Below, in pieces: positions 8,037 to 59,083 of a stretch of DNA of 64,000 nucleotides. Location of the stretch: positions 75,751,429 through 75,815,428 of the forward strand of contig CM049312.1 of assembly GCA_026874595.1 (NCBI GenBank). The letters are read 5' to 3'. The notes below the pieces were generated by a model. It did not search any database, was not told the DNA's origin, and saw nothing but the letters and a program-made list of their open reading frames with translations. Within the stretch, counting starts at the first letter, position 1; each line of letters starts with the position of its first letter. The translations under genes were made by a program, and so were the position numbers. Origin of the DNA: Sipunculus nudus (lineage: Eukaryota; Annelida; Sipuncula; Golfingiida; Sipunculidae).

Positions 8037-8417
8037 ATAAATGACTAAACTTTGAGGAAACAGTAAACAAACCAGAGGACTAGTATTTCATACATTTATT
8101 GACTTTCTTCACACATGTACATCAATATATGTACATCTACAGGGTTCACTACAACAGCGATAACATCATCAGGTATGACAAAGGGTAACGTTCATATCAC
8201 CCGGGACTTACCAGGAAACAAAACTGGTCTTATTACAGATAAATCAGACTAGATTTATTACAGAGAATAACGCGAAGACTTGTTTATGCACACAGGCCTG
8301 ATCTCCCCAGGTCCTGTTACAATAATCCCTTTTTATTTGAACATAAAAATTATAATTTTTAAATTTTATATACACCCTCCCCCGGGGCGTAGTATTCACT
8401 ATGGTTAGATACAATAT

Positions 8418-33500: not shown

Positions 33501-36500
33501 GGTGTGCGTACTAATATATAGTTAGTATGAGTTGCTGAAAATATTCTATTTTTTTTAATGCATCAATGCCGTAGTAACAAAAATGACAATAGTAATAAAC
33601 ATTGTTGTGGATGATCAGACATATGTCAAAACTGTTATTACTCCTTTCCACACTAATACCTGTATTAACTACAGTAAAACAGACAATCTTATATGCATCT
33701 AAACATGACTGGACTATGCCTTCAGAATGCTTAGAGTGATGCTCAAGCAACTGTCATTTAACATTAAATTGATGTTTGATAACAATTTACTTATAATAAT
33801 TGAATGTTAAGAAGTGAAGAAAATAAATAAGATTTGGAATTATAAGCAGCAATGATCTATCCACTTTTGATAAGTATTTATTTATTAACATATCTTCATC
33901 CTAATCAAAACATTCTTTTGACAAGTACTTGTTACACACTAAATCTAAAGAGTGAAATCCACAGTGGCATGCATACATACTTTTAACAATACTTAGGAAG
34001 TAGAACCTATTAAAAAAAAAAAAAAAAAAATAACAGGAGCATTAATAAAATTTCTTTTGCAAGTCCTACTTGTAGTGGTCAAGTTACTAGTCACCTGCAA
34101 GAAAGGAGCCTTGAAAGGGGACCTGTCAACTGTTTGGTATTTTCAAAAGCTTCAAAGATACAGCAGCCAAAACATTGATGGCTACTCGTGCAGGAACACA
34201 CCTGCTCTATTGTTCTAAAAGATAAAAGTGAGGTAGCCCATGTGTAGTAACAAAACTTGGGCTGCATTTTATAGTTCTTTACAAACTATATTAAAAAATA
34301 TTACATAGTCACTTTTGGTGAAAGCAGAAAGGAAAATTAAAATTAATTTCAAAGAACATTTGGGTGCTTTTAAACACTCTTTTGGAGTAACTAGTATATT
34401 GGCTGTTACTTCTTGTATAATACAGTAATAGTTAGACCTTAAGTGTTGTCATAATATCAATAATATCAGTAATGTAAAAGTCATGTGGCATGTTAACATG
34501 TAATAAAAAGTAATAAAGTAAACATTTTAAGTTCAAAGAACACATCTTTGGAATGTTGACTGTACACAGCTTATGTAACAAACAACTGTCAGTCCTGGAG
34601 CATTGTCATGAATATCATTGATATCTGACATATAAATGGTATGTTAATAGTTAGCATATGATAATGGATAGTACAAGATTAAAAATTGAAAAATCGATAG
34701 ACCTGGTGTATTGTCATGAATATCATTGATAATTGATATCTGTCATATAAATTTCACATTGAATGTTAACATTAGGTAGTAGATAAAAGTAGAATAAATT
34801 TAACGTCTAGGAACACACCTGTGGAGATGTAGACTGCTAATGGCTTATGTAGTAAAGCAGGGGTTAGTCCGGGTGAGTAGTTATGAATATCAGAAGTATC
34901 TGACATATAAATGATATACTGAATGTTAACATATAATAGTGAATGGTTAAAAACAAAAATTCAAGGAGCCCACATTTGGAGATACTGATTGGTAACAGCT
35001 TTGTAATAAACAACTAGTAGTCCTAGAGTGTTGTCTTGAATTTCATAATATCTGGCATATAACTGGTATGTTGAATGTAAACATATGATGATGCCTAATA
35101 CAAGATTTAAATTTAGACTAAAAAAGGAACCCACTCTGGGTGTTGTCGACTGCTAACAGCTAATATAACAAATCAACAGGTGGTCTTGGACCGAGAAGAG
35201 TTGTTGTGAATATCTGACATATGAATGGTATGTTGAATATTAACATAGGATTGTGAATAATGGAAGAAAATAAGTATTGATTAACTTCAAGGGACTTCAG
35301 GGAAGTTAGTAATTACCAGCTTATTTAATAAAACAATGGATAATCTGGTGTGTTGTCGTGAATTTCATTAATATTCTGACATACAAATGGCCTATTAAAT
35401 ATAAACATATGATAATGGCCAGCAGAAAAAAGGTAATTTATCTACAAAGAGTACAACTTTAGGGATGTTGACTAAAACAAGCAGCGAGTAGTCTTGAACT
35501 TAGTGTTGTCAAGAATGCCAATAATATCTGACATATAACCGTGATGCTGGATGTTAACACAGGATTTCAAAACTTAGAGAATTAAACCAAATTTGACCTC
35601 AAAAGGATATATTTTTGGTATTAACCAGTATGTTGGCTGGTAACCAAAGATTATGAAGAAAAAAAAAAAAAAGCGAAGGGTAGTCATGGAGTGTCATCAT
35701 GAATATCATTTATACGTGAAATATAATTGGTATATGGAATGTTAACATATGATAGTGTTAACACTGAAGTTGAACCAGAATTCTCAACTAGTGCATATAG
35801 CATATAACATGCGGTAACGAAGAACATTTTTTTTTTTTTTAAACTACAACGTCATACGGAAATGAGCCTAGTAAATATTATGTTGCCTACTAGAGTTTAG
35901 AGGCATATAAATTACAACTTACATCTGACAGTTTTTGTTTTTTTTTATGACAAGTCCCATTGGAGTACTTCTGCGTTTTGGATGGCAACATTCTGACAGA
36001 AGTCTCAAGGTACGCACTGGGCGATAAAGGATATCTGCAGTTTCATCGGGTCTCGCCTAGCCATAAAAGTGGTCTGGATCCCTGATCATTGTTAATGTAT
36101 GCTCTAATTTTTGGGAGATGGGAACTTTACTTTTCCTGGGGCTCGGTCTTGGCACTCTGGCCCTCCTGGTGGCTTGTCAAGTGCAAACCAGCAGGCCGCG
36201 GTTCGACCACGTGTGTTGTGTTGTGATAGGGTGAAGCTAACGTAGACCACCAATACAGAGGCGTCTAATCTTATTATTTCATTGCCGAGGTACAATTGAT
36301 TGGCACGTCTTTGCCGTCAATTATTAGTCGTCCACGCCAGAATCTCACTTTCAGGTGGTCTTCGTGGGCTTTACGCATTTGGGGGGCCGCTTTCTTTTTC
36401 ATGAGGTAATCCTTGTTGGTCAGGTCCTCCGCCAGGAAACTTGACGACGGATTAGCTTGGGGGTTTTGACTTCTTGTTTCCTTTTGTGTTTTCAGCAACT

Positions 36501-39500
36501 TGTTCCTTATTGGTCTGGAGTACAATCTTGCAATTATGTATCTGTCGCCTTTTGCTTTTGATTTGCCTGTTCTATGAGCATTTTCGATTGTGTTCAAAAT
36601 ATCCCTCATATCTGCACCCTCTAGAAGCTTCTTTTCATGAATAAACTGTGACACTATGTTTTTGCAATCTTCGCCTTTTTGTTCTTTTATGCCAATCAGT
36701 CTAATATTGTATTCCCTGCTATTTCTTTCTGAATTCAACAGTTTTTCTTTCATCCTGGAGATTTGTGCATCTTTTTCCTGATTCTCTTTTTTCAAAATTT
36801 GTATTTCATTTCTCAGTGATTTGTTCTCAGTCTCAAAGTTTTTAAATTTTTTTGTCATTTTCTCAACATTAGATTGGGTGAATTCCAGGCTCTGCACAAC
36901 AGTATCCATTTGACATTTCAATTCTGAATATTTTTTGTCTGTTTTTTACAGTCATTTTTGATAGATTCGATGTCCTCACGTAGGGAGTCTGTGAAATCTT
37001 TTATGGCAGATTGTAAAACCTGTTCTAACTGAGCGCAATTGGTATTTACAATACTTGTAATGTCACTCGCCTGTACTGACTCTTGTCCCTGCCCTTGCAT
37101 CTCCGACTGTGTGTGTTCTACAGAAGTTTTTTTTGGTCCTATCTCCAAGTATTTGTCCAAACTTGTTTGTTCTTTGGCTGTTAGGTCACTTTTGCTCCTT
37201 GATCTGGTTAAAATATTGAACTGGTCAGCCATAATCACTATAGACAACAAAGTATACCGAGAGCGCACTGATGGAACGTCTGTTCACTCGGCCATATTGA
37301 ACCGGAAGTCCCATCCACATCTTTTTAAAGATGTGTCCTGTGACCTTGACCTTTGACCTCATGACCCCAAAATAAATTTGGGTCTTGCTTTTCCAATGGG
37401 ACATATACAAGTCAAGTTTGAAATCCATACATTAATAAAAGCAGGAATTATCATCCAGAAAATAATTTTTGGGACAGATGGCTCCTGTGACCTTAACCTT
37501 TGACCTTGTGACCTCAAAATTGATAGGGGTCTTCCACTCTTGGCAGGTATACTATATGTGCAAGATGAAAGATCTGAGATGAATTGTTTGGCTGAAAATG
37601 CATCCACAATCTTTTTAAAGATGTTTTCTGTGAACTTGACCTTTGACCTCATGACCCCAAAATCAATTTGGGTCTTGCTTTTCCAATGGGTCAAATACAA
37701 GTCAAGTTTGAAATCCATACATCAATAAAAGAAGGAATTATCATCCAGAAACTAATTTTTTGACAGATGGCTCCTGTGACCTTCACCTTTGACCTTGTGA
37801 CCTCAAAATTGGTAGGGGTCTTCCTCTATTGGCAGATGAACTCTATGTGCAAGACGAAAGGTCTGAGATGAAATGTTTGGCTGAAAATGCATCCACAATC
37901 TTTTTAAAGATGTGTCCTGTGACCTTGACCTTTGACCTCATGACCCCAAAATCAACTGGAGTCTTGCTTTTTCAATGGGACATATATAAGTCAAGTTTGA
38001 AATCAATACATCAATAAAAGCAGGAATTATCATCCAGAAACTAATTTTTTGACAGATAGCTCCTGTGGCCTTGACCTTTGGCCTTGTGACCCCAAAATTG
38101 ATATGGATCATCCACTATTGGCAAGTGAGCTATATATTCAAGATAAAAGACCTGGGATGAAAGTTTGGCTTAAAATGCATCCACAGTATCTTTTAAGATG
38201 CCAGTCCAGTGACCTTGACCTTTGACCTCATGACCCTAGAACCTAAAGGGTTCTTACTTTAGTGGTGGGCTATACATAAGTCATGTTTGAAATCCATATG
38301 GCTATCAACACTGGAGACATCATAAGAGGTGTGTGATTTTCACCATATATGGCAATATTCAAGGTCAAGGCCACTCTCATAGGAGAGGTCATGACCCCAA
38401 TTTAAATTAACATCATCCCATAACCCATACCTATGTATATGCATAATATAAAAGAAATCTGTCCATTTGTTTTTGACTTATAATGCTCACAGTACTGTAA
38501 GGTGGCAATTTTAGGGGTATTAAACGGCACGAAACAAGTAAAGAATAATAGGTGGCGCCACCGGTTTCTGGAACATGACAACCCTATCCATGATCTTCTG
38601 TCAACTTGATTTTGGGATAAATCCATGCAAGATTTCTTGAGATATTAAAGAATTTGTGTGATTTTCCCCAAAATTGGACCTATTCAAGGTCAAGGACACT
38701 CTCCTAGTAAAGGTCATGACCTCATTTTAAATAGACATCGTCCTCTTACCCATATCTATACATATACCAAGTTTGGTAAAGTTCCGTGAAATATATTTTG
38801 GGTTATCGCGCCAACAAGATTTATATGCGGCGGCGGCGGCGGCAGCGGGACCAGTATGAAACATAGTATCCCCCGACTTTGTCTGGGGATACAAATATAT
38901 ATTATGAGATGTATTTTCAACACCTAAAGGTCCTTTTCCAATATCTGACTCCTATTAACTAAAGATACTCCCTTGAACCTTTTTGAAATAAGGCCAGAAA
39001 ATTCTGATCCCACCACACACAGGCTGTTCATTATGGTTATATCCACAAATTTATAACTTATGGGGGGGGGGGGCATGCTAAAATAGTCCAAACACATTCT
39101 ACAAGGACATCTGATGTCAAGTCGGACAAACCAGAGTTTTAAAAAGGGCATTTTGCAAATAGTGACCATTCAACTTTAACATATATGTTACCATCCACAT
39201 TAGGTAATTTTTTTTTTCAGTCTGTCAACATTGCTGTGTTTACTAACAGCTTGTCTATTAACAAGCTCATACATCCGTCACAGAGGCATTATATGAACTG
39301 TTCTTGATAGAAATTACCTAAAGTTTATTAATTTGTACGCAGAGTAAGCCAGAATTCACATCAGTTCTACAGAAAAGGTAGATGAACTGCTGGCTTTAAG
39401 TCTGTAGCATGCTGACCCAGGATTGTGGTGGATCATGAAAATTCTCACTGTAAATAAAGAAGCTCACAATTTCCCAGCTTTGCTTCCTGTGCTAAACCCC

Positions 39501-42500: not shown

Positions 42501-45500
42501 TTTTGCCAGATTGGCCGCCATGATTTCCTTATCTCTCTGCCGTACGATGGCTTCGACCGCCAACCACTCAGACATCGTAGCCTCAAAGTGCTGCTGTATG
42601 GACTCTTCCAGTTCGTTCCTCTGATCAGGAGTGCTACCAAACTCGTAATGACCCAGCAAATATGGCCAAACCTGTAAAACAATACACACAGTAATCTAAT
42701 AAATCAGTTCTCCATTTCCAGGGTTTATAAATTCCTCAAGAATCTCACTGAAACAACACAATAATTATTATCATGTATAATTTTTCCAAACACTGTGAAA
42801 GCCTGGTTTTGAATAATAATCATTCTAAGCATTTTAACATTGTTTGCCTGTAAATCTACCTTACAAATAAACTAGATGTGTCAGAACAACACGAATGTCC
42901 TCTTCTGGGGCAAATTAGAAATATTTGTTAAAGTTTGTAAAATTTTCTGTGTTCAGGAGCTGTCATACGGTCAAAAGTAGGTGAACCAGGACAAAATGTG
43001 AACTCGATCTGTAAGTGGTTATTATGCACCCACACAAAAAAAATTAGGCCAATATCTGCAAACTAAGACAACTGCAACGAAACACAAACTCAATCTATAA
43101 CTGGTCATGTTCTGTCAAGGTCCAATAAATCAGGTCAATATTTGCAAGCACTGTGAAAAAAAGTCAGTACATGTGAATTTATCATGAAAATTTCTATTTG
43201 CATGAAATTTTCTGTTCTTTAACTGTCATACGGGACAAAATGCAAACTCAACCTGTAAGTGGTCATTTGGCACAACAAATTTCAGGCCAATATCTGCAGG
43301 CATTGTGAAAAAAAGTCTGTAAATGTGCATTTATCATGAAAATCTAATTTTTTCATAAATTTTCTATGTTCAGGAGCTGTCATACGGTCAAATGTAGTTC
43401 AACTGGGACAAGTGGTCATTTTGCTGCCACATACTAACAAGTGACCCATGGGTCATGACGCTCAGCTGACTGGGAAGAGCTTCGCAAAAGGAAATTTTAT
43501 CATCAGAATGGTATAGTATACACCCATTCATCTGAAGCATCAAACAGATTAACCAACAGGCCAAGTTTTAGTCTGTATTTATATATCTCAAAAATAGAGA
43601 AAAAATGTGTGAACTTTAAAAACTAGAATACGGGTAGCCGACAAGTGAGTACGTGTATCTGCCAAAATCAGAATGGAACTGGTGAAGTGAGGCATGGATT
43701 GAGTGGCAAGGGGAAATAGAGTGAGGTATGTTGCATATTAGCATAGATGTCTGCAGCCTAAATGTGTAGGTAGGTTGTGCCACCTACCACAAATCCAGAA
43801 AGCTGTCCAAGTTGTATACATATGCAAAATTTTAGGCAGAAAAGTCAAACCACTACATGCACTGCATGTTCCCGAGATATGAGCTTGGATGTCTGCAGCA
43901 TAAACAAGAATGTAGGTGGCGCGACCTGTCATAAAATCAGGAAAGCTATCCAGGATGTATAAAACTGCAAAATTTTAGGCAGATATGTCAAACCACTGCC
44001 GAGATATGAGTGACATTATCCCACGGCAGACAGACAGACGCTGACCAAAAATGGTTTCAGGTGGCGCCACCATTTTTGCGTATGATTAAGAGCTATTTGA
44101 GATCTATACACATGCAAAATTTTGGCCCAATCGGTCAAATGGTTCCCGAGATATGAGCTTTGATGTCATCAGCGTGAACGTGAATGTAGGTGGCGCCACC
44201 TGTCATAAAATCAAGAAAGCTATCCAGGATGTATACGCATGCAGAATTTCAGGTGAATTAGTCAATACACTGCAGAGATATGAGTGATTTCAACCCAAGG
44301 CAGATGAACAGATGGACACTGTGCAAACGAGGTTACAGGTGGCGCCACCATTTTTTGTGTATGTTATAGAGCTATCCAAGGGCTTCATTTGTATAAATTT
44401 TATTTCCTGATCGGTCAAACAGTTCCCGAGATATGAGCTTGGAAGTCATTTGCGTGAAAGTGAATGTAGGTGGCGCCACCTCTCATAAAATCAAGAAAGC
44501 TATCCAGGATGTATATGCATGACAAATTTCAGGTGAATTAGTCAATTCACTGCAGAGATATGAGTAATTTTAACCCAAGGCAGATGAATAGATGGACACT
44601 GTGCAAACATGGTTACAGGTGGCGCCACCATTTTTGTGTATGTTATAAAGCAATCCAAGGGCTTCATTTGTATAAATTTTATTTCCTGATTGGTCAAACG
44701 GTTCCCGATAAATGAGGGTTTATGTGTGGGATCAGACGCACAAATGGACGCTAGATAGAAGGTCAGAGGTCAACGCTAATTGGTTAGGCACCAGTTCACA
44801 TGTGCCCCGATAATTGGTGTAAGTTTCGGAAAAATTGGTCCATTAGTCTCAGAGGAGCTCTCTTGAAACGAACGCGGCGCGGAGGAGCCCGGTCAAAAAC
44901 ATAGTATCTGCAAAACTTTGTTTTGGCGGATACAAAAATACAGGTGGCTCCACCAGTCTGCAGAAACTAATAAAAAAACTTAATGGTCAATATCCATGCA
45001 AAGAATCATGGTAATCTCCGCATTAGTTGTTCAGATACTTCAGCTTTTGTATCAAATTGTCCACTATTCTGAGGGATACTCTGGAGTCCTATAGCTTGAA
45101 GGATATGGGTAACAGAGACCTAATTTCAAGTTTCCACAGGCACTTTTCATGGGCCTCCTTGCATGACAAGAATGAAGATTCTAGGTCCAGTTGTTGTAAT
45201 TTGTACCCTGTTGACAGATAACCACATCTTTAAAGGTCTCAAAAAAAGAGAAAAAATTTGTAAAAATTTGAAAAAAATAGAGGTGGCGCACCCAGTCTGC
45301 AGAAACTGATGGAACAGCTCATGATCAATAAGTGTGTCGAAAATCATGACCATCAGTGTTGTAGTTATTGAGATACTGCAGTTTTTGTATCAAATTTTCG
45401 ATTATTCTGGGGGTATTTTGGAGCCATACAGCTTAAAGAATATGGGTAACAGAGACCTAATTTCAGGTTTCCATGGAGACTTTTCATGGGTCTCCCTGTG

Positions 45501-48500
45501 TGTCAAGAATGAAGATTCTAGGTCCAGTTTTTATGATTTGTGCCCTGTTAACGGATGTTCATATCTTTAAAGGTCTCAAAAATAGAGAAAAAATTCATAA
45601 TAAAACCCGAACGAATACAGGTGGTGCCACCAGTCTGCAGAAACTGATGAAACACTCCATGATCAATATCCATGCAAACAATTATGGTGATCTCTGCATT
45701 AGTTGTTCAGATATTTCAGCTTTTGTATCATATTTTTCATTATTCTAAGCTGTACTTTGGAGTGTCATAGCTCAAAGGATATGGGTAACAGAGACCTAAT
45801 TTCTGGTTTCCATGGAGACTTTTCATAGGTCTCTCAGATTTTTCATGGACCTCTCAGTGTGTTGAGAATGAAGATTCTAGGTCCAGTCGTTACGATTTGT
45901 GCAACATTAACATATGACAGCATCCTTACAGGTCTCAAAAATAGAGGAAAAAATCGTAAAAAATTGAACAATACAGGTGGCGCCACCAGTCTGCAGGAAC
46001 TGATGGAACATCTCATGATCAATATGTATGCCAAAAATCATGACCATCAGTGATGTAGTTATTGAGATATTGAAGTTTTTGTATGAAATTTTTGACTATT
46101 CTAGGGGGTACTTTTGGGCCCCATAGCTCGAAGGATATGGGTAACAGAGACCTAGTTTCTGGTTTCAAAGGAGATTTTTCATGTACCTCTCAGAATCTGA
46201 AGTTACAAGGTTCTAGTTCCCGCGGTTATGATTTGTGCCTTGTTAACAGATGTTCACATTTTTAAAGGTCTCAAATATAGAGAAAAAAATTCGTAAAAAA
46301 TCGAAAAATACAGGTGGCACCACCAGTCTGCAGGAAGTGATTGAACATCTCATGATCAATATGTATGCCAAAAATCATGACCATCAGTCAAGTAGTTAAT
46401 GAGATGTTGAAGTTTTTGTATGAAATTTTATACTTTTCTGGGGGGTACTTTGGGGCCCCATAGCTCAAAAGATATGGGTAACAGAGACCTAATTTCTGGT
46501 TTCCAAGGAGATTTTGCATGGACCTCTCAGAATCCCAAGTTACAAGGTTCTAGGTCCAGTGGTTACGATTTGTGCCTGGTTAACAGACGGACAGACAGAC
46601 GGACGACGGACAAAGAGTGATCGCTATAGCTCAGATGACTTTCACTCAGCTGAGCTAAAAATTAGGTCAATATCTGCGGGCATTGCTAAAAAAAAGTCCA
46701 TACATGTGCATTTGTCTGGAAAATTTCTATTTTTTCATGAAATTTTCTATGTTCAGGAGCCTTCATACGGTCAAAAGTAGGTCAACCAGGACAAAATGCA
46801 AACTCCATCTGTAAGTGGTCATTATGCACCCACACACCACAAATTAGGCCAATATCTGCAAGCATTGCGAAAAAAAACGCCGTACATATGCATTTCTCAT
46901 GAAAATTTCTATTTTTCATGAAATTTTCTATGTTCAGGAGCTGTCATACGGTCAAAAGTAGGATGAAACGAGAACTTGATCTGTATCTGGTCATTATCTG
47001 CCCACACATAAAAAATCAGGCCAATTTCTGCAGGCAATGCAAAAAAAAGTCCCTACAACTGTTTGATTTCAGAATGACTGAAGGTCAGAATGACGGACAT
47101 GGGTAAAACAATATGCCCCGGCCACTTTGTGGCGGGGGCATAAAATTAAACTGATCAGAGTAATTTCAGGTTAGAATTAAACTAAATTATGAAATATTAA
47201 TACTCAGTACTACTGTATGGAAATATCTATGGAAATATGGGACTTATAGGGGCAGATCTTAAAGGGTTACCAGTAGGTAACAATTTCACTACAATCTAAG
47301 GACCTTTGACTTTGTGTGTAATAATTACAGTTCATGCATCTGACCTCAGTCAGACACATACCTCTTTCCTGATGTCATTCTCACAGCCGCCATAGTAAAC
47401 CAGTCGGTACATTTCTTCACGGTTTGTGACCTGAAAAACACACATTAAGGTCATCTAGTTGTAAACTGATTACTGACATCTGATAGTGCTCAATAAAACT
47501 TAGTGTGATGGAAACTGACAAATTTTATTGGGAATTTAAGAATAATACATGGGTAATACATTAGATATTAAAATTTGATACCATATGGATAGAAACAGTT
47601 AACAACAGTGGTGATTTGTGTAGACTGGTTGAGTTATACATGTGCATTTTTATCTCTGTGACCCAGCTTGTGACATCTGGGTTTTACTGTATGCAAAATG
47701 GCAGATTCAAGAGGGGTTTTCAGAAACTGGGAGAAAGAAACCTGTAAGGGTTCTATGAGGGCACAGAAAGTAACACAAAAGTACTCTGAGGACAGGGGCC
47801 ACGTAAGAATGTATTTGTGAAGAGAGTTTGGTAACCAGGGGATGTGTATCAGCAAATTATGGTGTGGTATAACACAACTCTGTGACCACTGCAAATTATA
47901 GTAGGTTGCAGTTCAAAGTAGGACTGGAGAAGCTTAAATATATACAAATTGTAGTTTCTCACCACTCCATTGTTGACCATGTCCGCCCATGCTTCAGCAG
48001 TGATTCCATCGGAGGCGTCGGAGGGGTTGTCAACGGGGACAACTGTGGTGTTCACTAGACCTGATAGATGTGTTCGAACTGTTTTCAGGTGACGGCAGTG
48101 GGCCAGCCCTGAAAAATGTATGCAGCATATGACCAGCTCTACAGAGGACAATCCTCACATGTTGTTTATGATAATCCTATTACACCTGAACTGCTAGGAA
48201 CATTCAAACTATGTTTGCTGGATCTTGCCCCTGGAGATTCCATAAAGGTTAGTAAAATTCTGAACTCAGGGACTTACACTGTACATAGCTGTAGCTTTTA
48301 ACCGTATCACATGGTTATCATCAGCAGACTAACATGCAGGTGTCAAATGACGTCAAATCAGGGGTCACATGACGTCAAATCAGGTCTGCTGCTGATGATG
48401 ATCCGGTCAAAAGCTACAGCTACTTACAATGTAAATCCCCTTAGTTCAGAATTTTACTAAACGTTTTGCTAGGAACATTGTTTCTTTAACAAATGTTGCC

Positions 48501-51500
48501 CCTATTTAAAGAACGATTTAAAACACAATAGGTTCTATGATTGTGTGTATCTAGAGCTGTTGATTCTATAAAATAAGAAACCAAATTTTAGATATCTTGC
48601 AGTCATGGTATTGTTACAAAAGCCAGCTTCTATATTAGGAATGACCATACCTAAAACTGCAAATATTTCCTATACAAGCACATAAATTGCAGTGTCCAAA
48701 TAAACATAAAAACAAAAGGAAAGCAAAGCATGGAAAACAGAATTTTTTTCTAATAATGGCAACCAATAATTTTAACCATAGCTTCAATGTGGGTAAGTTT
48801 CATCCGCATATAATTATTTAAAAAAACAACAAGATCATGAAAATTAATTTCACAGTACTTTATGGTAAATAGGTTATAATAATTTGAATAAGTGAATGAC
48901 GAACTTACAGCCATAGAAGGCTCGTGATAAGATCTGATTCCTCATTGTATCACAGAGTTGTTTCACAGCGCTCCGACTGAGAACGAAAACCAACAACAAG
49001 TTAGTATCACATTAACGTGTGCCATGTTTTATCCTTATGCTACTGAAAATGTGAATAATGAAAGCAATATATCTGACATTAGATTAAAGACAGTCATAGT
49101 TAAAAATTATTTCAGTGTTTCCTAATTTTAATCTTTCTAAGAGGCTTTTCTCCATTTCAAAATTTTCTCCATTTCGAAAGAAATTCATTTTTTCATGATT
49201 GCCTCTTAAAATTCTTCCTTTCATAAATACAGTACAGCATATTTGCCTATTATAGAGAGGTGACTCTGATAAAGGGGTGACCGTTAAGAGAGATGCTCCG
49301 TTTCTTTCACATATTTTCAGTCTGATTATTTATCAAAACTTGGGGTCTTTACCCAGATATATTACAAAATGTAGTCAGCAATTTTCTTACACATAAAACA
49401 CATGGGCATGCTGCTAAAAATGTGCTAAGTAGAAACTTCATGACATTTTCACCTTAGAAGGTACATTTTGTGTGGCAGATCAATAGGCTTCACCTCTAAT
49501 CCCAGTCTCTTATGTTTATGTACAAATATAAAAGTGGAAGCTGTTAAATATTAAAGTAAAATCTCTGATTTCCTCTTTGTGTCATACCTGTGAGCGTTTT
49601 TAGATATACAGCTGTTATTAAAATGCTGCTGTGTCTTGGCGTATGACTGTATGGCAGACACTGGCTGTTGGGTGAGGGGGCTCTGTGCTGACGCTTTCTT
49701 TTGTGGCCACGGGAAATTTTCACTTTTTTCCTTCAGTCGTGGTTCCAACATTTCTCCTGAAGTGAGGAAAACACTGTTTTTACAAATGTAACTTGATTGG
49801 ACAGAAATCACAAAAAAAATAACATTTCATTTATTTTACATTATGGTTTGTACAGATCTTATATTATATTGATTTGATGGGGGGGTATTAACCTATATTA
49901 TCTGGCTTTGACAGGTGCAATTTACCTATAATATCTGGCTTTGATAGCTAGTTTTTACCATATCAGGCTTTGAAAGATGGTATTTATCTGTAGTATCTGA
50001 CTTTGAAAGGTGGTATTTACCTACAGTATCTGGCATTGACAGCTAGTGTTTACCATATCAGGCTTTGAAAGATGGTATTTACCTACAGTATCTGACTTTG
50101 ACAGGTGGTATTTACCTACAGTATCTGGCATTGACAGGTGGTATTTACCTATAGTATCTGGCTTTGACAGGTGGTATTTATCTATAGTATCTGGCTTTGA
50201 CAGGTGGTATTTACCTATAGTATCTGGCTTTGAAAGATGGTATTTATCTTTAGTATCTGGCTTTGACAGGTGGTATTTACCTATAGTATCTGGCTTTGAC
50301 AGGTGGTATTTACCTATAGTATCTGGCTTTGACAGGTGGTATTTACCTATAGTATCTGGCTTTGACAGATGGTATTTACCTATAGTATCTGGCTTTGACA
50401 GATGGTATTTATCTATAGTATCTGGCTTTGACAGGTGGTATTTACCTATAGTATCTGGCTTTGACAGGTGGTTTTTACCTATAGTATCTGGCTTTGACAG
50501 GTGGTATTTACCTATAGTATCTGACTTTGACAGGTGGTATTTACCTATAGTATCTGGCTTTAACAGACGCTATTTACCTATATTATCTGGCTTTGACAGA
50601 TAAACGATCCGGAACACGTAATCCGTGGCCTCTTCATCCATGTCACCTTCATCTCCCTCGTCTATGGATGTCTGACCTTTTTGACCATTCATTTTGCTTC
50701 CTTTGCGCTTTAATTTTGGGAACACCTTGCCTGCTTGGAACAGGAGAGACCATATTAGTATGAAGGTTCTAGTCACTGTTAGAAAATACTGAACAGCAAC
50801 AGTACGCAACAATGTAGCTATCAGTAGACTCTTTTTTTTCCACATGCACTGGTACTTCACATTCTGGGGTAGTGAGGTTGGCTTTAGATTTTCAGGGTTA
50901 ACTTTTTGTAGTTTTCCATTTTTTCAGGGTTTTTATGGAGAGTTTCACTTTTGTAACTAACCTACAAAGACTATACCTTTTCATTACATGAATTTTAATA
51001 ATCTAAATAATCTAACAATCATTACATGAATGCATTTATAATCTAAATTATATGACAATGACCCAAGGGAACACTGAATGCCAGTAGAATTTCTTTTTCA
51101 TTAGGGTAGACAAATATAAAAGCCATCCACAGTAACCATCGTCTGGTTATCAAGGTGGAGTTAAAAAATATTCAAGTAGAATTTAAAAAAATATGCCAGA
51201 GGCTCTGACAACAACTTAACTGTTGAAAATCAAGATCCTTGTATACTTGAACCATTTAAGGCATAACAAAATATGACAATCTTTGTTTCATTACTGACCC
51301 AAACACTCAGTGTTATTCTCTGCCGGCAGTTGTCGCTTTGCAATGATACTTTTGTTTTAGGTGACAATTTTAAACTATTCTGATGTATCAGGCATCCTAG
51401 CCAGGGTACATTAAACATATTTACCAACTTATATCAGACATATGCTTGGAGGCATTACTTCACTACGTGATTAAGTATATATATAAAAAGTCTGTATTTT

Positions 51501-54600: not shown

Positions 54601-57600
54601 TATGCAAACCTACAGCGTTTGAGACTACGTGAGGCAGTATCACATGCTTCATCTCATTTTATCCTGGCTTTAACAAGCCTGGTGACTACTGCACCTGCAG
54701 GCCCTGGGTACGTAATCATCTCCATTGCTGAGTTATACCAATGAGGAGCCCCTGAAAGGCGCACTCATTTTGGGGTGAAACTAGACCATTGGGCACGGCC
54801 TTCCCATTTAGCCTGTGGACCACTCACCCTGGGTTGGGGCTGACCGTGAAAAATCTCACCGCCACGGCTGAGACTTGAGCTCACTATATCACGGCTTTGA
54901 TTCCTTTCCTCTACCCCTGAGACACAGAAGCTGGTACAGGGCATGTATACTTGCTAACTCCAGTTCTCCTGTTTGCCAAATATTGTGTTCTGTGTGTGAG
55001 TAAACACAGTCCATACAAGACAGGTTGATCCTGGTCTGCTCTTACAAATGTGCAACAATGCTCAAACAAGTAGAAGTAACAGGGACATGGTTGTGAATCT
55101 TTTTTGTGAAGATAAACAGCATGGCCACCAGATGGCATGGGCTATGTTTATGTTTAGCCCCACTGGACACACCTGCAGCAAGTTTATTTCCACTTGTGTC
55201 CAGGAGTCCACACACTCAGAATAAAATACTGGCTGAAATGTTTCAAAGAGAAAAATATTTCATGTCTATTTAAAATACCTGGTAAATAAATGGGTACTTT
55301 TAAATAAACAAATTAATGTTATAACCAGACCTCTCAGGAATCTGTGGTGGGGTTACTAAAGGAAACAAGGATCATCCAAAAAGCCTCACAATCACAATTT
55401 TAAAGGTATCCATTCACCTCCCTTTTGAAAAAGAATTTATGTGATTTCTGGCTTCCTCTGTGTATATATTAATGATCTAAGGGTAATTTTTGTTATGAAA
55501 AATTTCTTATAGCACCTCCTGGAAGGATGCATGAACTTGTTTGTACACACAGTAATGTTGACAAACAGGAAAAACATGTAACTTAAAAGTGGTAAGTTGA
55601 AAATATGCGGAGGTAGAAAGGTCACTTATTGCAAAGTGCCATTTGCAAAGCTCTGGCTTATCTGAATTGCTGCAAGATGCCCTTGATAAATTTTTAAAAT
55701 TTTTTTGGTGAGCCCCCACATATTATAAACTAGTTGATATAAACAAAACAAGCAACCTGACAGCGGTGATATTTTCTGGCCTATTTTTTGTAACAAGTGA
55801 CCCATGGGTCATGTCGCTCAGCTGACAGGGAAGAGATTCGCTAAAGGAAATTTTATAATCAGAATGGTAGTATATACCCATTCAACTGAAGCATCAAACA
55901 GATTAACCAACAGGCCAAGATTTAGTCTTTATTTATATATCTCAAAAATAGAGAAAAAATGTGTAAACTTTAAAAACTAGAATACCGGTAGCCGACAAGT
56001 GAACACGTGTTTCCGCCAAAATCAGAGTGGAACGGTTGAAGTGAGGCATGGATTGAGTGGCAAGGGGAAATAGAGTGAGGTATGTTGTATATTAGCATGG
56101 ATGTCTGCAGCCTAAATGTGTATGTAGGTTGTGCCACCTACCACAAATCCAGAAAGATGTCCAAGTTGTATACATATGCAAAATTTTAGGCAGAAAAGTC
56201 AAACTACTACATGTGTATGAGTGATTTTAGCCAACGGCAGACAAACAGACAGACGCTGTGCAAAAATGGTTACAGGTGGCCCCTCCAGTTGACCTATGTG
56301 AGATCTATACACATTAAAAATTTTGGCCCAATCGTTCAAACGGTTCCCGAGATATGAGCTCGGATGTCTGCAGTGTAAACTAGAATGTAGGTGGCGCCAC
56401 CTGTCATAAAATCAAAAAAAGCTATCCAGGATGTATAAAACTGCAAAATTTTAGGCAGATATGTCAAACCACTGCCGAGATATGAGTGACATTATCCCAC
56501 GGCAGAAAACAGACAGACGCTGTGCAAAAATGGTTGCAGGTGGCGTCACCAGTTTTGCGTATGATAAAGAGCTATGTGATATCTATACACATGCAAAATT
56601 TTGGCCCAATCGGTCAAACTGTTCCTGAGATATGAGCTTGGATGTGATCAGCTTGAACGTGAATGTAGGTGGTGCCATCTGTCATAAAATCAAGAAAGCT
56701 ATCCTGGATGTATATGCATGCCGAATTTCAGGTGAATTAGTCAATTCACTGCAGAGATATAAGTGATTTTAACCCAAGGCAGATGAACAGATGGACACTG
56801 TGCAAACATGGTTACAGGTGGCGCCACCATTTTTGTGTATGTTATAAAGCAATCCAAGGGCTACATTTGTATAAATTTTATTTCCTGATTGGTCAATCGG
56901 TTCCCGAGATATGAGGGTTTGTGTGTGGAAACAGATGCACAAATGGACGCTGGATAGAGGGGAAAGGTCAGAGATCAACACAAATTGGTTAGGCACTAGT
57001 TCACATGTGACTAGATAATTGGTGTAAGTTTCGGAAAAATCGGTCCATTTTTCTCAGAGGAGCTCTCTGGAAACAAATGTGGCGGCGGCGGAGGAACCCG
57101 GTCAAAAACATAGTATCTGCAAAACTTTGTTTTGGAGGATACAAAAAAACAGGTGGCTCCACCAGTCTGCAGAAACTAATAAAAACACTTAATGGTCAAT
57201 ATCCATGCAAAGAATCATGGTGATCTCCGCATTAGTTGTTCAGATACTTCAGATTTTGTATCAAATTGTCCATTAATCTGAGGGATACTTCAGAGTCCTA
57301 TAGATTGAAGGATATGGGTAACAGAGACCTAATTTCAAGTTTCCACAGGCACTCTTCATGGGCCTCCTTGCATGACAAGAATAAAGTTTCTAGGTCCAGT
57401 TGTTGCAATTTGTACCCTGTTGACAGATAACCACATCTTTAAAGGTCTCAAAAAAAGAGAAAAAAAATTCGTAAAAATTTGAAAAAAAATAGAGGTGGCG
57501 CACCCAGTCTGCAGAAAGTGATGGAACAGCTCATGATCAATAAGTATGCCGAAAATCATGACCATCAGTGTTGTAGTTATTGAGATATTGAAGATTTTGT

Positions 57601-59083
57601 ATGAAATTTTTGACTACTCTTGGGGGTTCTTTGGGGCCCCATAGCTCAAAGGATATGTGTAACAGAGACCTAATTTTCTGGTTTCCATGGACACTTTTCA
57701 TAGGTCTCTCAGTGTATAAAGAATGAAGATTCTAGGTCCAGTCGTTACGATTTGTGCCACGCTAACAGATGACAGCATCCTTAAAGGTCTCAAAAATAGA
57801 GGAAAAAATCGTAAAAAAAAAAAAACGAACAAATACAGGTTGTGCCACCAGTCTGCAAGAACTGATGAAACACCTCTTGATCAATATGTATCCCAAAAAT
57901 CATGACCATCAGTGATGAAGTTATTGAGATATTGAAGTTTTTGTATAAAATTTTTGACTACTCTGGGGGGTACTTTGGGGCCCCATATCACAATGGATAT
58001 GGGAAACAGAGACCTAATTTCTGGTTTCCATGGAGACTTTTCATAGGTCTCTCAGTGTGTCAAGAATGAAGATTCTAGGCGCAGTCGTTACGATTTGTGC
58101 CACGCTAACAGATGACAGCATCCTCAAAGGTCTCAAAAATAGAGAAAAAAATTCATAAAAAATCCAACGTTACAGGTGGCGCCACCAGTCTGCAGGAAAT
58201 GATGACACATCTCATGATCAATAGTTATGCCACAAATCAAGACCATCAGTCAAGTAGTTAATGAGATATTGAAGTTTTTGTATGAAATTTTTTACTTTTC
58301 TGGGGGGTACTTTGGGGCCCCATAGCTCAAAGAATATGGGTAACAGAGACCTAATTTCTGGTTTCCATGGAGACTTTCCATAGGTCTCTCAGTGTGTCGA
58401 GATTGAAGATTCTAGGTCCAGTCGTTACGATTTGTGCCTTGTTAACAGATGTTCACATTTTAAAAGGTATCAAAAATAGAGAAAAAATTCGTAAAAAATT
58501 GAAAAATACAGGTGGCGCCACCAGTCCTCAGGAACTGATGGAACATCTCATGATCAATATGTATGCCAAAAATCATGACCATCAGTCAAGTAGTTAATGA
58601 GATATTGAAGTTTTTGTATGAAATTTTTTACTTTTCTGGGGGGTACTTTGGGGCCCCATAGCTCGAAGGATATAGGTAACAGAGACCTAATTTCTGGTTT
58701 CCAAGGAGATTTTTCATTGACCTCTCAGAATGTAAAGTTACAAGATTCTAAGTCCAGCGGTTACGATTTGTGCCAGGTTAACGGACAGACGGACAGACGG
58801 ACGGACAGACAGACGGACAGACGGACAAAGAGTGATCGCTATAGCTCAGCATGACTGAAAGTCAGCTGAGCTAAAAACTCCAAGGAATAACCTTTAGTTT
58901 ATAAGGGTCAGATAGGTGATTTTGCCCCTTTAATAACCTTTCCTAGGTCTCATTTCTTTCATCATCAGACTAACCCTTCAGCCGTGTAACATTTAAATGC
59001 GATCCTCATACTTACGTTGTTGATGACAGTGCAGGTACACAATCTCCTCCATAAAAATGGCCACCGCATAATCCCAATACAGG
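15468..59083 (-). CDS. SGSM1: SGSM1/2-like RUN-TBC RabGAP, 15 exons, 5' partial
   Basis: Small G protein signaling modulator, a cytoplasmic/endomembrane Rab GTPase-activating protein of the SGSM1/SGSM2 (RUTBC) type. Fifteen minus-strand exons join in phase into 756 codons ending in TGA. Residues 1-127 (numbered from the first complete codon here) match the Rab-binding region ([28 protein letters not shown]). Residues 184-225 carry the conserved linker FYGWLAHCRHL. The TBC domain starts at [11 protein letters not shown] (278) and is interrupted by a ~230-residue Ser/Glu-rich insert, as in vertebrate SGSM1/2. It resumes with the arginine finger IDKDVQR (R552) and glutamine finger YIQG (Q586), so both GAP catalytic residues are present. 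The protein ends ...KLQDLIENK. The C-terminus looks more SGSM1-like, but a single invertebrate gene may be co-orthologous to SGSM1 and SGSM2. The RUN domain and start codon are not in the window. Exons: 59083-59016, 53389-53231, 50730-50578, 49756-49588, 48976-48909, 48108-47963, 47430-47362, 42671-41972, 41155-41091, 40596-40472, 39755-39673, 25877-25765, 19536-19440, 16115-15948, 15556-15468. Confidence 0.93.
15948..16115 (-). CDS. SGSM1: SGSM exon N, TBC domain (true copy beside degenerate duplicates)
   Basis: Encodes [40 protein letters not shown] and [15 protein letters not shown], the end of the TBC domain. The acceptor is TTCATATTTCAG and the donor is CAATG|GTAAGT. Four degenerate copies of its acceptor and first ~80 nt lie directly upstream in the intron (see the repeat entry). 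This copy is the only one with the complete exon and a donor. Confidence 0.96.
16116..16670 (-). repeat. Tandem array of four degenerate copies of exon N's 5' half and 3' splice site
   Basis: Directly upstream of exon N, a ~123-138-bp unit repeats four times. Each copy has a pyrimidine/AT stretch with GAATATTCAT, an acceptor-like CAG (at 16241-16239, 16373-16371, 16504-16502 and 16642-16640; the true one is 16118-16116) and about 80 nt resembling the exon start. Conceptual reading of the third copy still gives [20 protein letters not shown]; the others are more decayed. None carries the exon's second half or its donor. They look like pseudo-exon fragments made by tandem duplication. Confidence 0.85.
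17066..18483. mobile_element. DNA transposon with 27-bp perfect terminal inverted repeats
   Basis: The left end TACCGTAAAATCTCCACTTA (then AAACCGC, 17066-17092) is the exact reverse complement of 18457-18483. If the outer TA is the target duplication, this is a TA-inserting (Tc1/mariner/pogo-like) element with a 25-bp TIR. The motif TTAAAACCGCAC repeats inside the left end (17083, 17103, 17175). No transposase was recognised in 1.4 kb, so it is probably non-autonomous. It lies in the intron between exons M and N. Confidence 0.85.
18640..19420 (+). repeat. Dispersed repeat K, copy 1, split by repeat J
   Basis: Shares GGGGCCTATTCC, TCTGACATCTATTAACTGAA, CAGGCTGTTAATTTTC, CAACAAGGACATCTGGCG and GCAGAGTAAGCC, in order, with 38920-39415. 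It is interrupted at 18708-19030 by another dispersed repeat (ACAAGAGCACCG start). It ends ~20 bp from the exon M donor. Confidence 0.7.
18708..19030 (+). repeat. Dispersed repeat J, copy 1
   Basis: Starts ACAAGAGCACCGCC. It contains TGACCTCATTAAATATGCAT, GAATTTTG and GAGTTTCATGAAAATCCATG. It matches 60253-60772 and, more distantly, 40717-41060. 3' truncated relative to the 60-kb copy. Confidence 0.7.
19440..19536 (-). CDS. SGSM1: SGSM exon M, TBC domain
   Basis: Encodes [20 protein letters not shown] and [12 protein letters not shown], the TBC block with the [13 protein letters not shown] signature. The acceptor is CATATTTTAG and the donor is AGAG|GTAAAG. 97 bp. Confidence 0.96.
19960..21240 (+). 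repeat. ~355-bp tandem array with ACCTGTACAGGT palindrome
   Basis: Units recur at about 353 and 363 bp. Each is centred on CACCTGTACAGGTG or a variant (20308, 20661, 21024), followed by CAGGTAAATACAGGTAAATT and AT-rich sequence; a weaker unit lies near 19980 (ACAGGTAAAAACAGGTAAAT). It lies in the intron between exons L and M. Confidence 0.75.
21300..25764. other. Intron L-M, part without named repeats
   Basis: Contains a 55-bp-spaced direct duplication of GGTTCACGTGACTG/GTCTGGCGTGTTTAT (21874 and 21929), a CA run (24178-24192) and a CG-rich patch (25205-25282). The rest is AT-rich without a recognised feature. Confidence 0.55.
22017..22037 (+). repeat. Poly-G run
   Basis: TGTGG followed by about 18 G. 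Other G runs mark core starts at 28974-28993 and 39061-39072. The length in an assembly is uncertain. Confidence 0.8.
25765..25877 (-). CDS. SGSM1: SGSM exon L, TBC domain
   Basis: Encodes [20 protein letters not shown] and [17 protein letters not shown], nearly invariant in SGSM proteins ([13 protein letters not shown]). The acceptor is CTTTATTATAG and the donor is ATTCAG|GTGAGA. It is separated from exon K by a 13.8-kb repeat-filled intron. Confidence 0.95.
26262..26650 (+). repeat. 26-bp minisatellite, about 15 copies
   Basis: The unit is CAGACTAGAAACAGATTTGC plus CTTACC, with variants GATG/GACG in place of TACC. The variants alternate in a partly regular order, suggesting a two- or three-unit higher-order repeat. 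Intronic (exon K to L intron). Confidence 0.9.
26669..26717. repeat. Short inverted repeat
   Basis: CTACTGTAGAC (26669-26679) and GTCTACAGTAG (26707-26717) are perfect inverted repeats separated by about 27 bp, directly after the minisatellite. A cruciform or RNA hairpin is possible; no function is claimed. Confidence 0.6.
26916..30239 (+). mobile_element. Pearl-like composite element, 11 core units
   Basis: The 5' end is ACAAGTGACCCAGGGGTCAT followed by GACGCTCAGCTGAC. The 3' end is the hairpin AGCTCAGATGACT-TTC-AGTCAGCTGAGCT (30206-30234) and CTAAAAA. GCTCAGCTGAC (5') and GTCAGCTGAGC (3') are inverted repeats. An AGAC/GGAC microsatellite precedes the hairpin (30141-30190). Between them are eleven units marked by GGATATGGGTAACAGAGACC (about 27083, 27247, 27414, 27573, 28052, 28336, 28674, 29019, 29356, 29694, 30032). 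The first four are ~165 bp apart; most later ones are ~330 bp and include GGTGGCGCCACCAGTCTGCA. A 3' hairpin remnant at 27895-27935 suggests fusion of two elements. Confidence 0.85.
31214..32371 (-). pseudogene. LINE ORF2, post-RT C-terminal domain with zinc knuckle
   Basis: Open for 385 codons to a stop at 31214. It begins just after GGLN with [20 protein letters not shown], the conserved segment that follows the RT domain in L1 ORF2. Later it contains the zf-RVT region [20 protein letters not shown] with the CCHC knuckle [18 protein letters not shown]. The YxDD catalytic motif of reverse transcriptase is absent because the RT domain is deleted. Confidence 0.9.
32368..32649 (-). pseudogene. 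LINE ORF2, endonuclease N-terminus (truncated)
   Basis: 93 residues starting [20 protein letters not shown]. They show the first APE-type endonuclease motifs, LNARGL (catalytic Asn) and FLQETH (catalytic Glu), then GVCTLIKN. The frame stops after [11 protein letters not shown]. The later endonuclease motifs (Asp/His) and the whole reverse-transcriptase core are missing. It runs straight into the [10 protein letters not shown] sequence of the ORF2 C-terminal part in another frame, the mark of an internal deletion. Confidence 0.88.
32650..34429. other. Unassigned part of the LINE inter-ORF spacer
   Basis: AT-rich sequence between the ORF2 start and the tandem array. It has a poly-A run at 34012-34030. 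I recognise no protein domain. It may be foreign DNA inserted into the LINE or an unusually long inter-ORF region. Confidence 0.5.
34430..35780. repeat. ~115-190-bp degenerate tandem array inside the LINE span
   Basis: Recurring block TCTGACATATAAATGGTATG followed by GAATGTTAACATATGATA, at about 34626, 34741, 34901, 35053, 35215, 35377, 35529 and 35717. Spacing is about 115-190 bp, mostly 150-165. GTCATGAATATCATT precedes most copies. It lies between LINE ORF1 and ORF2, where L1 elements normally have a short spacer. No coding capacity was seen. Confidence 0.8.
36274..36921 (-). pseudogene. LINE ORF1, coiled coil and RNA-binding part
   Basis: Open for about 215 codons. It begins with a heptad-like coiled coil ([20 protein letters not shown]), then an RRM-like block ([13 protein letters not shown] ... 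[20 protein letters not shown]), then a basic C-terminal domain ending [17 protein letters not shown]. This is the L1 ORF1p order (coiled coil, RRM, CTD), a nucleic-acid chaperone that coats the element's RNA. There is no in-frame ATG at its upstream edge, so it is the continuation of the frame-shifted N-terminal part. Confidence 0.85.
36918..37230 (-). pseudogene. LINE ORF1, N-terminal part (before frameshift)
   Basis: Starts [20 protein letters not shown] and continues as a polar, Gln/Ser-rich N-terminus leading into a helical segment ([20 protein letters not shown]). The frame ends at NIQN with a stop, while the coiled coil continues in another frame immediately downstream. The region between is A-rich (AAAAAACAGACAAAAAATAT), a likely place for a one-base slip. 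About 104 residues. Confidence 0.8.
38920..39415 (+). repeat. Dispersed repeat K, copy 2, uninterrupted
   Basis: Same ordered blocks as 18640-19420 without the inner insertion: AATATCTGACTCCTATTAAC, CAGGCTGTTCATTATGG, CTACAAGGACATCTGATG, GCAGAGTAAGCCAGAATTC. It starts just after the hairpin-ended element at 38892. Confidence 0.7.
39673..39755 (-). CDS. SGSM1: SGSM exon K, TBC glutamine-finger exon
   Basis: Encodes [20 protein letters not shown] and LLVIFDD. The YxQG motif (Q586) is the second catalytic finger of TBC GAPs. The acceptor is TTATTTTCAG and the donor is GATG|GTGAGT. 83 bp. Confidence 0.95.
40472..40596 (-). CDS. SGSM1: SGSM exon J, TBC arginine-finger exon
   Basis: Encodes [40 protein letters not shown] and C. 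It holds the TBC motif IxxDxxR (I546, D549, R552), whose arginine completes the Rab active site. The acceptor is TTCTGACCAG; the donor TGCAC|GTGAGT gives a Thr codon split AC|G. Confidence 0.95.
40717..41060 (+). repeat. Dispersed repeat J, copy 2
   Basis: Contains TCTTGTGACCTCTGACCTCA and TTAAATATGTATGG with a second similar unit. It ends with ACTGACAGCAGGGGTAACCA and TAATATGTCC, like the 60-kb copy. Lies just downstream of exon I. Confidence 0.65.
41091..41155 (-). CDS. SGSM1: SGSM exon I, small 65-nt exon
   Basis: Predicted because direct joining of the flanking exons would create a stop (G+GC TGA). This 65-nt segment lies between TTCTGTAG and GTATGTAC, takes two bases (AA, giving GAA) and ends in phase 0. 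It stays open as [20 protein letters not shown] and S, leading into [14 protein letters not shown]. The resulting YS-AELLD junction resembles the YSxELLD motif of SGSM proteins. Confidence 0.78.
41972..42671 (-). CDS. SGSM1: SGSM exon H, TBC start plus long disordered insert
   Basis: A 700-bp exon. Residues 278-340 ([20 protein letters not shown] ... [16 protein letters not shown] type) are TBC-domain sequence. The rest is a low-complexity Ser/Thr/Glu/Asp-rich insert with many SP/TP sites, such as [16 protein letters not shown]1/2 of vertebrates also have the TBC domain split by a long poorly conserved insert at this point. The acceptor is TTTTACAG; the donor GCAG|GTAAAA leaves one base, which needs the 65-nt exon downstream to restore frame. 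Confidence 0.93.
42872..47146 (+). mobile_element. Hairpin-ended repeat family hosting a nested Pearl-like element
   Basis: Starts near ACTAGATGTGTCAGAACAAC. Tandem units carry GTCATACGGTCAAAAGTAGG and CTGTAAGTGGTCATTATGCA (about 42964, 43228, 43381, 46767, 46945). It ends with the hairpin TATGCCCC-GGCCACTTTGTGGC-GGGGGCATA (47112-47142). Positions 43437-46661 are a nested insertion: the flanks CACATACT and TTAGGTCAATATCTGC rejoin to match the neighbouring units. The 5' boundary is approximate. Confidence 0.75.
43437..46661 (+). mobile_element. Pearl-like composite element nested in another repeat
   Basis: The 5' end carries the perfect palindrome TGACCCATGGGTCA (43442-43455) and GCTCAGCTGAC. 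The 3' hairpin is at 46628-46656, with GACGGACAGACAGACGGACG just before it. The inside is two-part. Positions 43740-44880 hold units of AGGTGGCGCCACCT with TCAAGAAAGCTATCCAGG; at 44904-44933 is an internal hairpin of another family (GTATCTGC/GGCGGATAC around AAACTTTGTTTT). Positions 44935-46560 hold GGGTAACAGAGACC-type core units. It interrupts the family whose hairpin lies at 47112-47142. Confidence 0.85.
47362..47430 (-). CDS. SGSM1: SGSM exon [13 protein letters not shown], entry to TBC domain
   Basis: 23 codons, phase 0 at both ends. It encodes [20 protein letters not shown] and RKE, the TBC-domain entry that reads YYGG..EIR in the family and leads into VWPYLLGHY of the next exon. The acceptor is TTTTTCAG and the donor is GAG|GTATGT. 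Confidence 0.93.
47963..48108 (-). CDS. SGSM1: SGSM exon [20 protein letters not shown]
   Basis: Encodes [20 protein letters not shown] and then [18 protein letters not shown], matching the SGSM segment just before the TBC domain. The acceptor is CATTTTTCAG and the donor is GTG|GTGAGA. It ends in phase 0. Confidence 0.94.
48248..48462. mobile_element. Foldback MITE with two CRE palindromes
   Basis: About 80-bp imperfect inverted repeats (GTTAGTAAAATTCTGAACTC on the left, AGTTCAGAATTTTACTAAAC on the right; inner arms AGCTGTAGCTTTTAACCG and CGGTCAAAAGCTACAGCT) surround a ~50-bp centre. The centre carries TGACGTCA twice (48348-48355, 48370-48377). It is small, has no coding capacity and can fold into one hairpin. 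It lies in the intron between exons E and F. Confidence 0.82.
48909..48976 (-). CDS. SGSM1: SGSM exon [21 protein letters not shown]
   Basis: Encodes the strongly conserved SGSM segment [20 protein letters not shown] followed by YG; the Trp codon TGG is split across the intron (T|GG). The acceptor is TCGTTCTCAG and the donor is GGCT|GTAAGT. 68 bp. Confidence 0.93.
49588..49756 (-). CDS. SGSM1: SGSM exon D, variable linker
   Basis: Encodes a polar linker beginning [20 protein letters not shown] and containing Gln/Ser-rich sequence, ending ISKNAH. The acceptor is TTTTCCTCACTTCAG and the donor is CACAG|GTATGA. It takes GA and passes AG on (Ser with the T of the next exon). Sequence conservation is weak, so the call rests on splice sites, matching phases and position between conserved exons. 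Confidence 0.8.
49888..50600 (-). repeat. 33-bp minisatellite seeded by exon C's 5' splice site
   Basis: About 21 tandem copies of a 33-bp unit. Read on the minus strand, a unit is CTGTCAAAGCCAGATACTAT followed by AGGTAAATACCAC. The first unit is the end of exon C itself with its donor ATAG|GTAAAT, so each intronic unit carries a near-perfect copy of the donor. Copies at the far end (49888-50060) are more diverged. On the plus strand the same array leaves one frame open with an 11-residue repeat, which follows from 33 being divisible by three. Confidence 0.93.
50578..50730 (-). CDS. SGSM1: SGSM exon C, acidic linker; end is seed of a minisatellite
   Basis: Encodes [11 protein letters not shown], then an acidic run ([11 protein letters not shown]) and [16 protein letters not shown]. 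The acceptor is TTCCAAGCAG and the donor is ATATAG|GTAAAT. The last 22 nt of the exon plus 11 intronic nt are the first unit of the 33-bp tandem array that fills the next 700 bp of intron. If a downstream copy of the donor were used, the frame would read GGT AAA TAG and stop at once. Confidence 0.88.
51544..51613. repeat. (TA)n microsatellite
   Basis: About 35 TA dinucleotides in the intron between exons B and C. Confidence 0.97.
52440..52478 (+). mobile_element. Decayed Pearl-like 5' terminus
   Basis: GAGACCCATGGTCCTTGGTG followed by CTCAGCTGAAAG resembles the family's 5' end with several substitutions. No matching 3' end was seen. Confidence 0.4.
53231..53389 (-). CDS. SGSM1: SGSM exon B, Rab-binding region core
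   Basis: Encodes [40 protein letters not shown] and [12 protein letters not shown], the most recognisable block of the SGSM Rab-binding region. The acceptor is CTGTCTTACAG and the donor is AGAG|GTAAAG. 159 bp; the phases fit exon A (C+CT) and exon C (G+GC). Confidence 0.95.
53390..55792. other. Intron A-B, left part
   Basis: Contains the probable SINE at 54659-54930. Elsewhere no recognised feature. Confidence 0.5.
54659..54930 (-). mobile_element. tRNA-derived SINE (probable)
   Basis: On the minus strand, CTCAGGGGTAGAGGAAAGG resembles a pol III A box and GAGCTCAAGTCTCAG resembles a B box at tRNA-like spacing. They are followed by a non-tRNA body (GGTGAGATTTTTCACGGTCA, CCAGGGTGAGTGG). This tRNA-like head plus unrelated body is typical of SINEs. 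The family is not identified and boundaries are approximate. Confidence 0.5.
55793..58877 (+). mobile_element. Pearl-like composite element, paralogue of the 43.4-kb copy
   Basis: Same order of parts as the element at 43437-46661: palindrome TGACCCATGGGTCA (55798-55811), a block with AGCCGACAAGTGAACACGTG, units with AGGTGGCGCCACCT (for example near 56392 and 56816), an internal hairpin at 57113-57142, then core units with GGGTAACAGAGACC. It closes with a GGAC/AGAC microsatellite (58783-58829) and hairpin (58843-58872). The matching two-part architecture shows that the composite multiplied as a unit. It lies in the intron between exons A and B. Confidence 0.85.
59016..59083 (-). CDS. SGSM1: SGSM exon A (first in window), Rab-binding region
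   Basis: Encodes [21 protein letters not shown], the stretch that in SGSM proteins opens the Rab-binding (PH-like) region after the RUN domain. The acceptor is TTTCTTTCTAG and the donor is C|GTAAGT. It takes two bases from an upstream exon that is not in the window and passes one base (C) on. 68 bp. Confidence 0.9.

Follow-up and report, generated by a model that had tools for sequence, protein, structure and literature searches.

Tandem arrays that span a splice donor are already known as a kind, with ABCA7 as the studied example, and the array that we describe here, in an SGSM gene of Sipunculus nudus, is another member. A different human minisatellite, that of the 6-16 gene (IFI6/G1P3), has a 12-bp unit. 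It provides multiple splice donors (Turri et al. 1995, cited in PMC2572611 and PMC4526556), with two downstream repeat units acting as donors to give three mRNA species (PMC4526556). The human ABCA7 intron 18 VNTR (De Roeck et al. 2018; PMC5954066) has a 25-bp unit and 23.7 copies, or 592 bp in hg19; its first GT is the canonical exon 18 donor, and a C-rich region is described there. According to the same source, use of the second-unit donor shifts the frame and leads to a premature stop, retention of one unit amounts to 2 ± 1% (by one reading of a “respectively”), transcripts with the premature stop increase with cycloheximide, and longer VNTRs go with more exon 19 skipping and lower total expression, one-unit retention being unaffected (PMC5954066). 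This precedent shows that such an array can matter, though not mainly through the ratio of unit retention. Further afield, internal tandem repeats at exon–intron boundaries of human duplicated genes are said to create new introns in paralogues of recent origin (PMC2812944), and intron gain via tandem duplication of AGGT segments has also been described (PMC4974935). Papers on intronic minisatellites of C. elegans (PMC4039745), on earthworm metallothionein introns (PMC12783039) and, as a review, on the structure of precursor RNA (PMC9977717) shed no further light on the case.

How does the SGSM array compare? Like the ABCA7 VNTR, it lies at an exon–intron border and is similar in copy number and length, and in both arrays the first unit holds the canonical donor and use of a later donor meets a premature stop; in SGSM, 17 of the 21 later units still have a donor-like GT. 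The differences are in the details: the ABCA7 unit (25 bp) begins at the GT and shifts the frame, whereas the first SGSM unit (33 bp) takes in 22 nt of exon and leaves the frame unchanged, so that a TAG is read; and length variation and splicing effects have been measured in ABCA7, whereas the SGSM array is described from sequence. In 6-16, the later donors give protein isoforms, whereas those of SGSM all meet the stop. With the repeats of human duplicated genes, our array shares the expansion of a boundary minisatellite, a change of splicing being described there (PMC2812944), and with the AGGT-duplication introns, it shares AGGT in tandem units, but the SGSM acceptor lies outside the array. 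Our searches of one open-access library, general as to organism and in one case asking for SGSM, brought up no array of this sort in any SGSM gene. The SGSM array suggests that the ABCA7 arrangement is no one-off; what is new is the prediction that the decoy donors are hidden in hairpins formed with the next copy and that, of 18 GT donors, the true one lies most open.

The host gene is SGSM1/2 and is read from the minus strand within the window (the whole stretch of 64,000 nucleotides that was analysed). Its assembled exons match the Rab-binding domain of Pfam PF12068 (E 3.4e-22) and chain B of PDB 4qxa, SGSM1 (E 1.6e-40); the latter alignment ends at the residue just before copy 1 of the array, and the seven exon C residues inside the array lie outside it. 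One open frame joins exons C (50730-50578), D (49756-49588) and E (48976-48909) to the start of F (from 48108), and more SGSM exons were located, with a TBC-domain query, as far as 15471. The features on which the argument turns are these (a slash marks the exon–intron junction):

50578 to 50730, minus strand: SGSM exon C, 153 nt, in frame with D, E and F and matched to PDB 4qxa; ends in the true donor, with its final 22 nt, 50578-50599, belonging to copy 1
49884 to 50599, minus strand: 33-bp minisatellite, 22 copies, each across a donor-like junction (TRF and unit-by-unit split)
49757 to 50577, minus strand: host intron, 821 nt (from frame and acceptor)
50570 to 50577, minus strand: first intron bases, GTAAATAG, with the donor GT at 50577-50576 and TAG at 50572-50570
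49884 to 50566, minus strand: the 21 later copies, 17 with GT kept and 13 with TAG/GTAAAT (copy table)
49588 to 49756, minus strand: SGSM exon D, 169 nt (from the open frame)

TRF reports the minisatellite with period 33, 21.9 copies and a score of 1075; split unit by unit, it yields 22 copies running from 50599 to about 49884, 20 of them 33 bp long and two (nos. 17 and 20) 29 bp. Copy 1 begins within exon C and spans the donor, 50578/50577; its exonic part agrees with the unit consensus at 21 of 22 nt, and beyond the junction it reads GTAAATAGCGT. The intron that follows consists of 694 nt of array and a 127-nt tail holding the acceptor, which ends at 49757. A preliminary description had proposed a minisatellite of about 21 copies, its 33-bp unit composed of the last 22 nt of exon C and the first 11 nt of the intron, with the exon end at 50578 as the true donor. 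We agree on each point: the count is 22 by unit, copy 1 does start 22 nt inside the exon, and the frame stays open across exons C, D, E and F when the exon ends there. When 461 array bases were searched against the 1.43-Gb, 153-contig assembly (by a method that omits very common words and scores the best candidates only), there were three matches, all at the SGSM locus.

GT is kept in 18 of the 22 copies, that is, in the true donor and in 17 of the 21 later copies, so the expectation of about twenty near-identical later donors stands for those 17 but fails for copies 6, 11, 13 and 19, where the donor +1 G has changed to A. The longer motif TAG/GTAAAT occurs in 14 copies with the true donor counted, which means that 13 later copies are identical to it over −3 to +6. 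Outside the array, the window has the same 9-mer once on its minus strand and never on its plus strand; its recurrence in the array is not due to chance. Variation falls at +1 in four of 19 copies and at +11 in five of 19, and the array therefore holds decoys without a general loss of donors. We found no mark of selection in the array.

Any use of a later donor enters GGT AAA TAG (50578-50570), in frame with exon C, and the premature stop that the preliminary description had foreseen is thus borne out. The in-frame TAG is present in copy 1 alone (1 of 22). In that frame the consensus unit reads through without a stop, which is uninformative because its plus strand is equally open. A coding tandem repeat is ruled out by the TAG in copy 1, the frame-breaking 29-bp copies and the openness of the plus strand.

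The locus is, in other words, a natural experiment on how the spliceosome chooses among identical 5′ splice sites: nine core positions are common to 14 copies, and only the first copy yields protein. On a weight matrix of human frequencies, the donor of exon C scores low (1.44, where those of D and E reach 4.06 and 1.88), but its U1 duplex energy is not low (−6.7, as compared with −7.2 and −5.4). On the matrix, from the start of exon C to exon D, the true donor ties with its 13 twins and is outscored by two GTs that lie within exon C (50677 and 50647). Were 14 identical sites to compete freely, productive splicing would drop to about 7%, which means that donor 1 must be favoured in some way. 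Aligners produce false splices between repeats (EASTR, PMC10632439), and short reads mapped across such an array call for caution.

How did such an array arise? Over copies 2-22, divergence from the consensus grows with distance from the exon (Spearman 0.67, p 0.001); pairwise identity averages 95.3% among copies 2-14 and 77.6% among copies 15-22, and five copies are identical to one another; the youngest copies would then be those on the exon side. Only the two end copies, 1 and 22, carry GATAATATAG, as expected if growth from within split one ancestral junction, and 12 of the 20 inner copies carry GATACTATAG. Copies 15 and 18 are identical and copies 17 and 20 are one base apart, a sign of a 95-bp higher-order duplication. 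All this fits ordinary minisatellite growth, and such behaviour, with young copies beside the exon, makes it likely that an array whose copy number is known from one assembly varies in length between individuals. Taken alone, its overlap with an exon does not exceed what random placement gives: among 27 tandem-array intervals of period at least 10, one overlaps any of 13 SGSM exons (some with approximate edges) by at least 10 nt, and circular shifts of the intervals gave a mean of 2.8 overlaps, with a probability of 0.14 for one or fewer. With 26 merged intervals, the mean was again 2.8, with at least one overlap in 99% of shifts.

Given the array, junction, frame, stop and copy pattern, all of which are established, we favour, with a probability of roughly two in three, a minisatellite born of slippage at the junction, in which donor 1 dominates, some splicing leaks to nonsense transcripts and the array is mainly a tolerated passenger. 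A 33-bp stretch lying across the junction of exon C with its intron would have been tandemly duplicated again and again, each duplication adding a copy on the intron side, and because copies were added there, the exon-attached copy would have kept both the protein and a working donor. We infer that this exon-proximal donor serves nearly all transcripts, since it is the first to be transcribed and gives the shortest exon, which at 153 nt is of normal size; folding may perhaps aid it by concealing the donors that follow. The low matrix score of donor C and its 13 equal twins speak against this. Occasional use of a later donor would add units with the in-frame TAG, and the leaked transcript would probably be removed by nonsense-mediated decay.

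Might the array instead do something? The preliminary description had set such tuning of splicing beside neutral slippage. U1 binding to many identical donors could delay or divert splicing, and array length would then set the productive fraction of SGSM mRNA or the skipping of exon D or C. The 13 later copies that match the true donor over −3 to +6, all of them running into a stop, speak for such tuning by competition, and in ABCA7 exon 19 skipping and expression do track VNTR length (PMC5954066). However, the ABCA7 isoform that retains a unit is unchanged with length (PMC5954066), four SGSM copies have no donor at all, we found no mark of selection and the predicted folding conceals most of the decoys, and we regard tuning as rather unlikely.

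That folding deserves a closer look. In the consensus unit, AUAGGU (−4 to +2) is predicted to pair with the ACCUGU that begins the next copy, in a stem of six pairs with a loop of seven bases and an energy of −4.3 kcal/mol (38-nt piece). An example is:

50530 to 50548, minus strand: decoy hairpin of copy 2, AUAGGU, 7-nt loop, ACCUGU (predicted only)

Copy 1 has GUCUGU in place of ACCUGU, and its predicted fold leaves AGGUAA in the loop. The predicted probability that AGGU is free is 0.44 for copy 1 against a median of 0.018 for the 17 other GT donors (60-nt folding window, 37 °C), and copy 1 is predicted to be the most exposed of the 18 at 10, 20 and 37 °C with two window sizes and again in a 200-nt folding window at 37 °C. 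This ranking omits the four copies without GT, which are themselves predicted to be fairly open (0.24-0.44, read one base off in the 60-nt folding window), as the lost pair would predict.

Is the contrast more than an accident of a few substitutions? Four random substitutions in a consensus copy 1 reached 0.44 in none of 300 trials, and substitutions placed as observed did so in 3% of 300. When exposure is taken over nine donor positions, the contrast shrinks (0.08 for copy 1, with a median of 0.012 for the others) and was reached by 1% of random substitutions and by 10.7% of those placed as observed (300 each). Simulated arrays with shuffled units gave an equally large contrast in 13 of 1500. 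As for the hiding itself, shuffled units conceal AGGU as well as the real unit does in 7% of 2000 cases and the 9-mer in 11.5%, 10% of 254 other minus-strand AGGT sites are predicted to be as hidden as the median decoy, and a real donor, that of exon E, is predicted to be equally hidden (0.008). Covariation in the hairpin is weak: its score was reached by 39 of 500 shuffles and the number of pairs changed on both sides was matched by 121 of 500, using the 11 distinct rows among 18 copies, whereas the same 18 copies with identical ones counted apart gave p 0.02-0.03 (both tests omit the end copies, 1 and 22, as well as both copies of 29 bp). The folding contrast, then, lies near the 1% level and belongs to a hypothesis formed post hoc; we treat it as a lead. 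It would be unexpected for a pure passenger and to that extent counts against our favoured reading, although its level is only about 1%.

One could build on it a bolder proposal, of decoys that mask themselves. Each unit would carry both a donor and, by way of the next copy, its antidote; new copies would arrive already folded, the partner of copy 1 would have changed, the array would be tolerated, and selection would have kept donor 1 exposed. We consider this quite improbable, and yet it offers a testable structural reason why such donor arrays may be tolerated.

Two further possibilities fare worse. Because most units contain ATAG/GTAAAT, with AG adjoining GT, each might serve as acceptor and donor at once, so that parts of the array were spliced as small exons or removed stepwise, and tandem AGGT duplication is a described path to introns (PMC4974935); but the AG of the unit has no preceding pyrimidine tract and the reading frame agrees with an acceptor at 49757, beyond the array, which makes exonisation very unlikely and rules out AGGT intron gain for the acceptor in use. 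That the copy number is wrong and partly a product of assembly is scarcely credible, for although it rests on a single assembly, the 716-bp array is short relative to long reads, and its ordered copy differences and 29-bp variants are not made by collapse or stutter.

The same gene holds a second junction array, a mirror image of the first, at 16668-16115 on the minus strand. Here the true exon start is preceded by four tandem copies, 123-136 bp long, in each of which an intron end is joined to the first part of a TBC exon; the true start forms the fifth.

16115, minus strand: true start of the TBC exon; decoy starts at 16238, 16370, 16501 and 16639

The five copies are 70-85% alike over 115 nt, and a 19-nt block at the acceptor, CATGAATATTCATATTTCA, whose core is the perfect palindrome ATGAATATTCAT, is invariant in four of them; an invariant run of this length appeared in none of 20,000 column permutations (the block having been chosen after inspection). 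Splicing to the nearest decoy acceptor would lengthen the exon by 123 nt, an open stretch that stays in frame with the phase-1 end of the preceding exon. In both arrays, the exon-attached copy is the intact one—the first for donors and the last for acceptors—as slippage under selection for protein predicts.

On the gene strand, a 26-bp array of 15 copies (TRF) at 26257-26651 contains 10 occurrences of TTTCTAG and six of the donor-like TGGGTAAGG, acceptor-like and donor-like sites lying a few bases apart. It was considered as a second donor array and ruled out, as it lies about 350 nt upstream of an SGSM exon (25908-25762) and meets no junction. Three other arrays (28175-30142, 44934-46587 and 57143-58782) apparently share one 337-bp unit, with AGGTGGCGCCACCAGTCTGCAG in the consensus, and arrays of 278-280 bp lie at 56294 and 43868. 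No tRNA was found in the window. On the minus strand, an open stretch at 31217-32655 matches zf-RVT (E 3.2e-08) and, weakly, an endonuclease (E 0.045), and another at 36277-36945 has weak coiled-coil-like matches; together they look like pieces of a non-LTR retrotransposon, of which the stretch at 36.3-36.9 kb may be the first ORF. Finally, at 8413-9172, a 384-bp unit stands twice in tandem with 98% matches, which points to a recent duplication.
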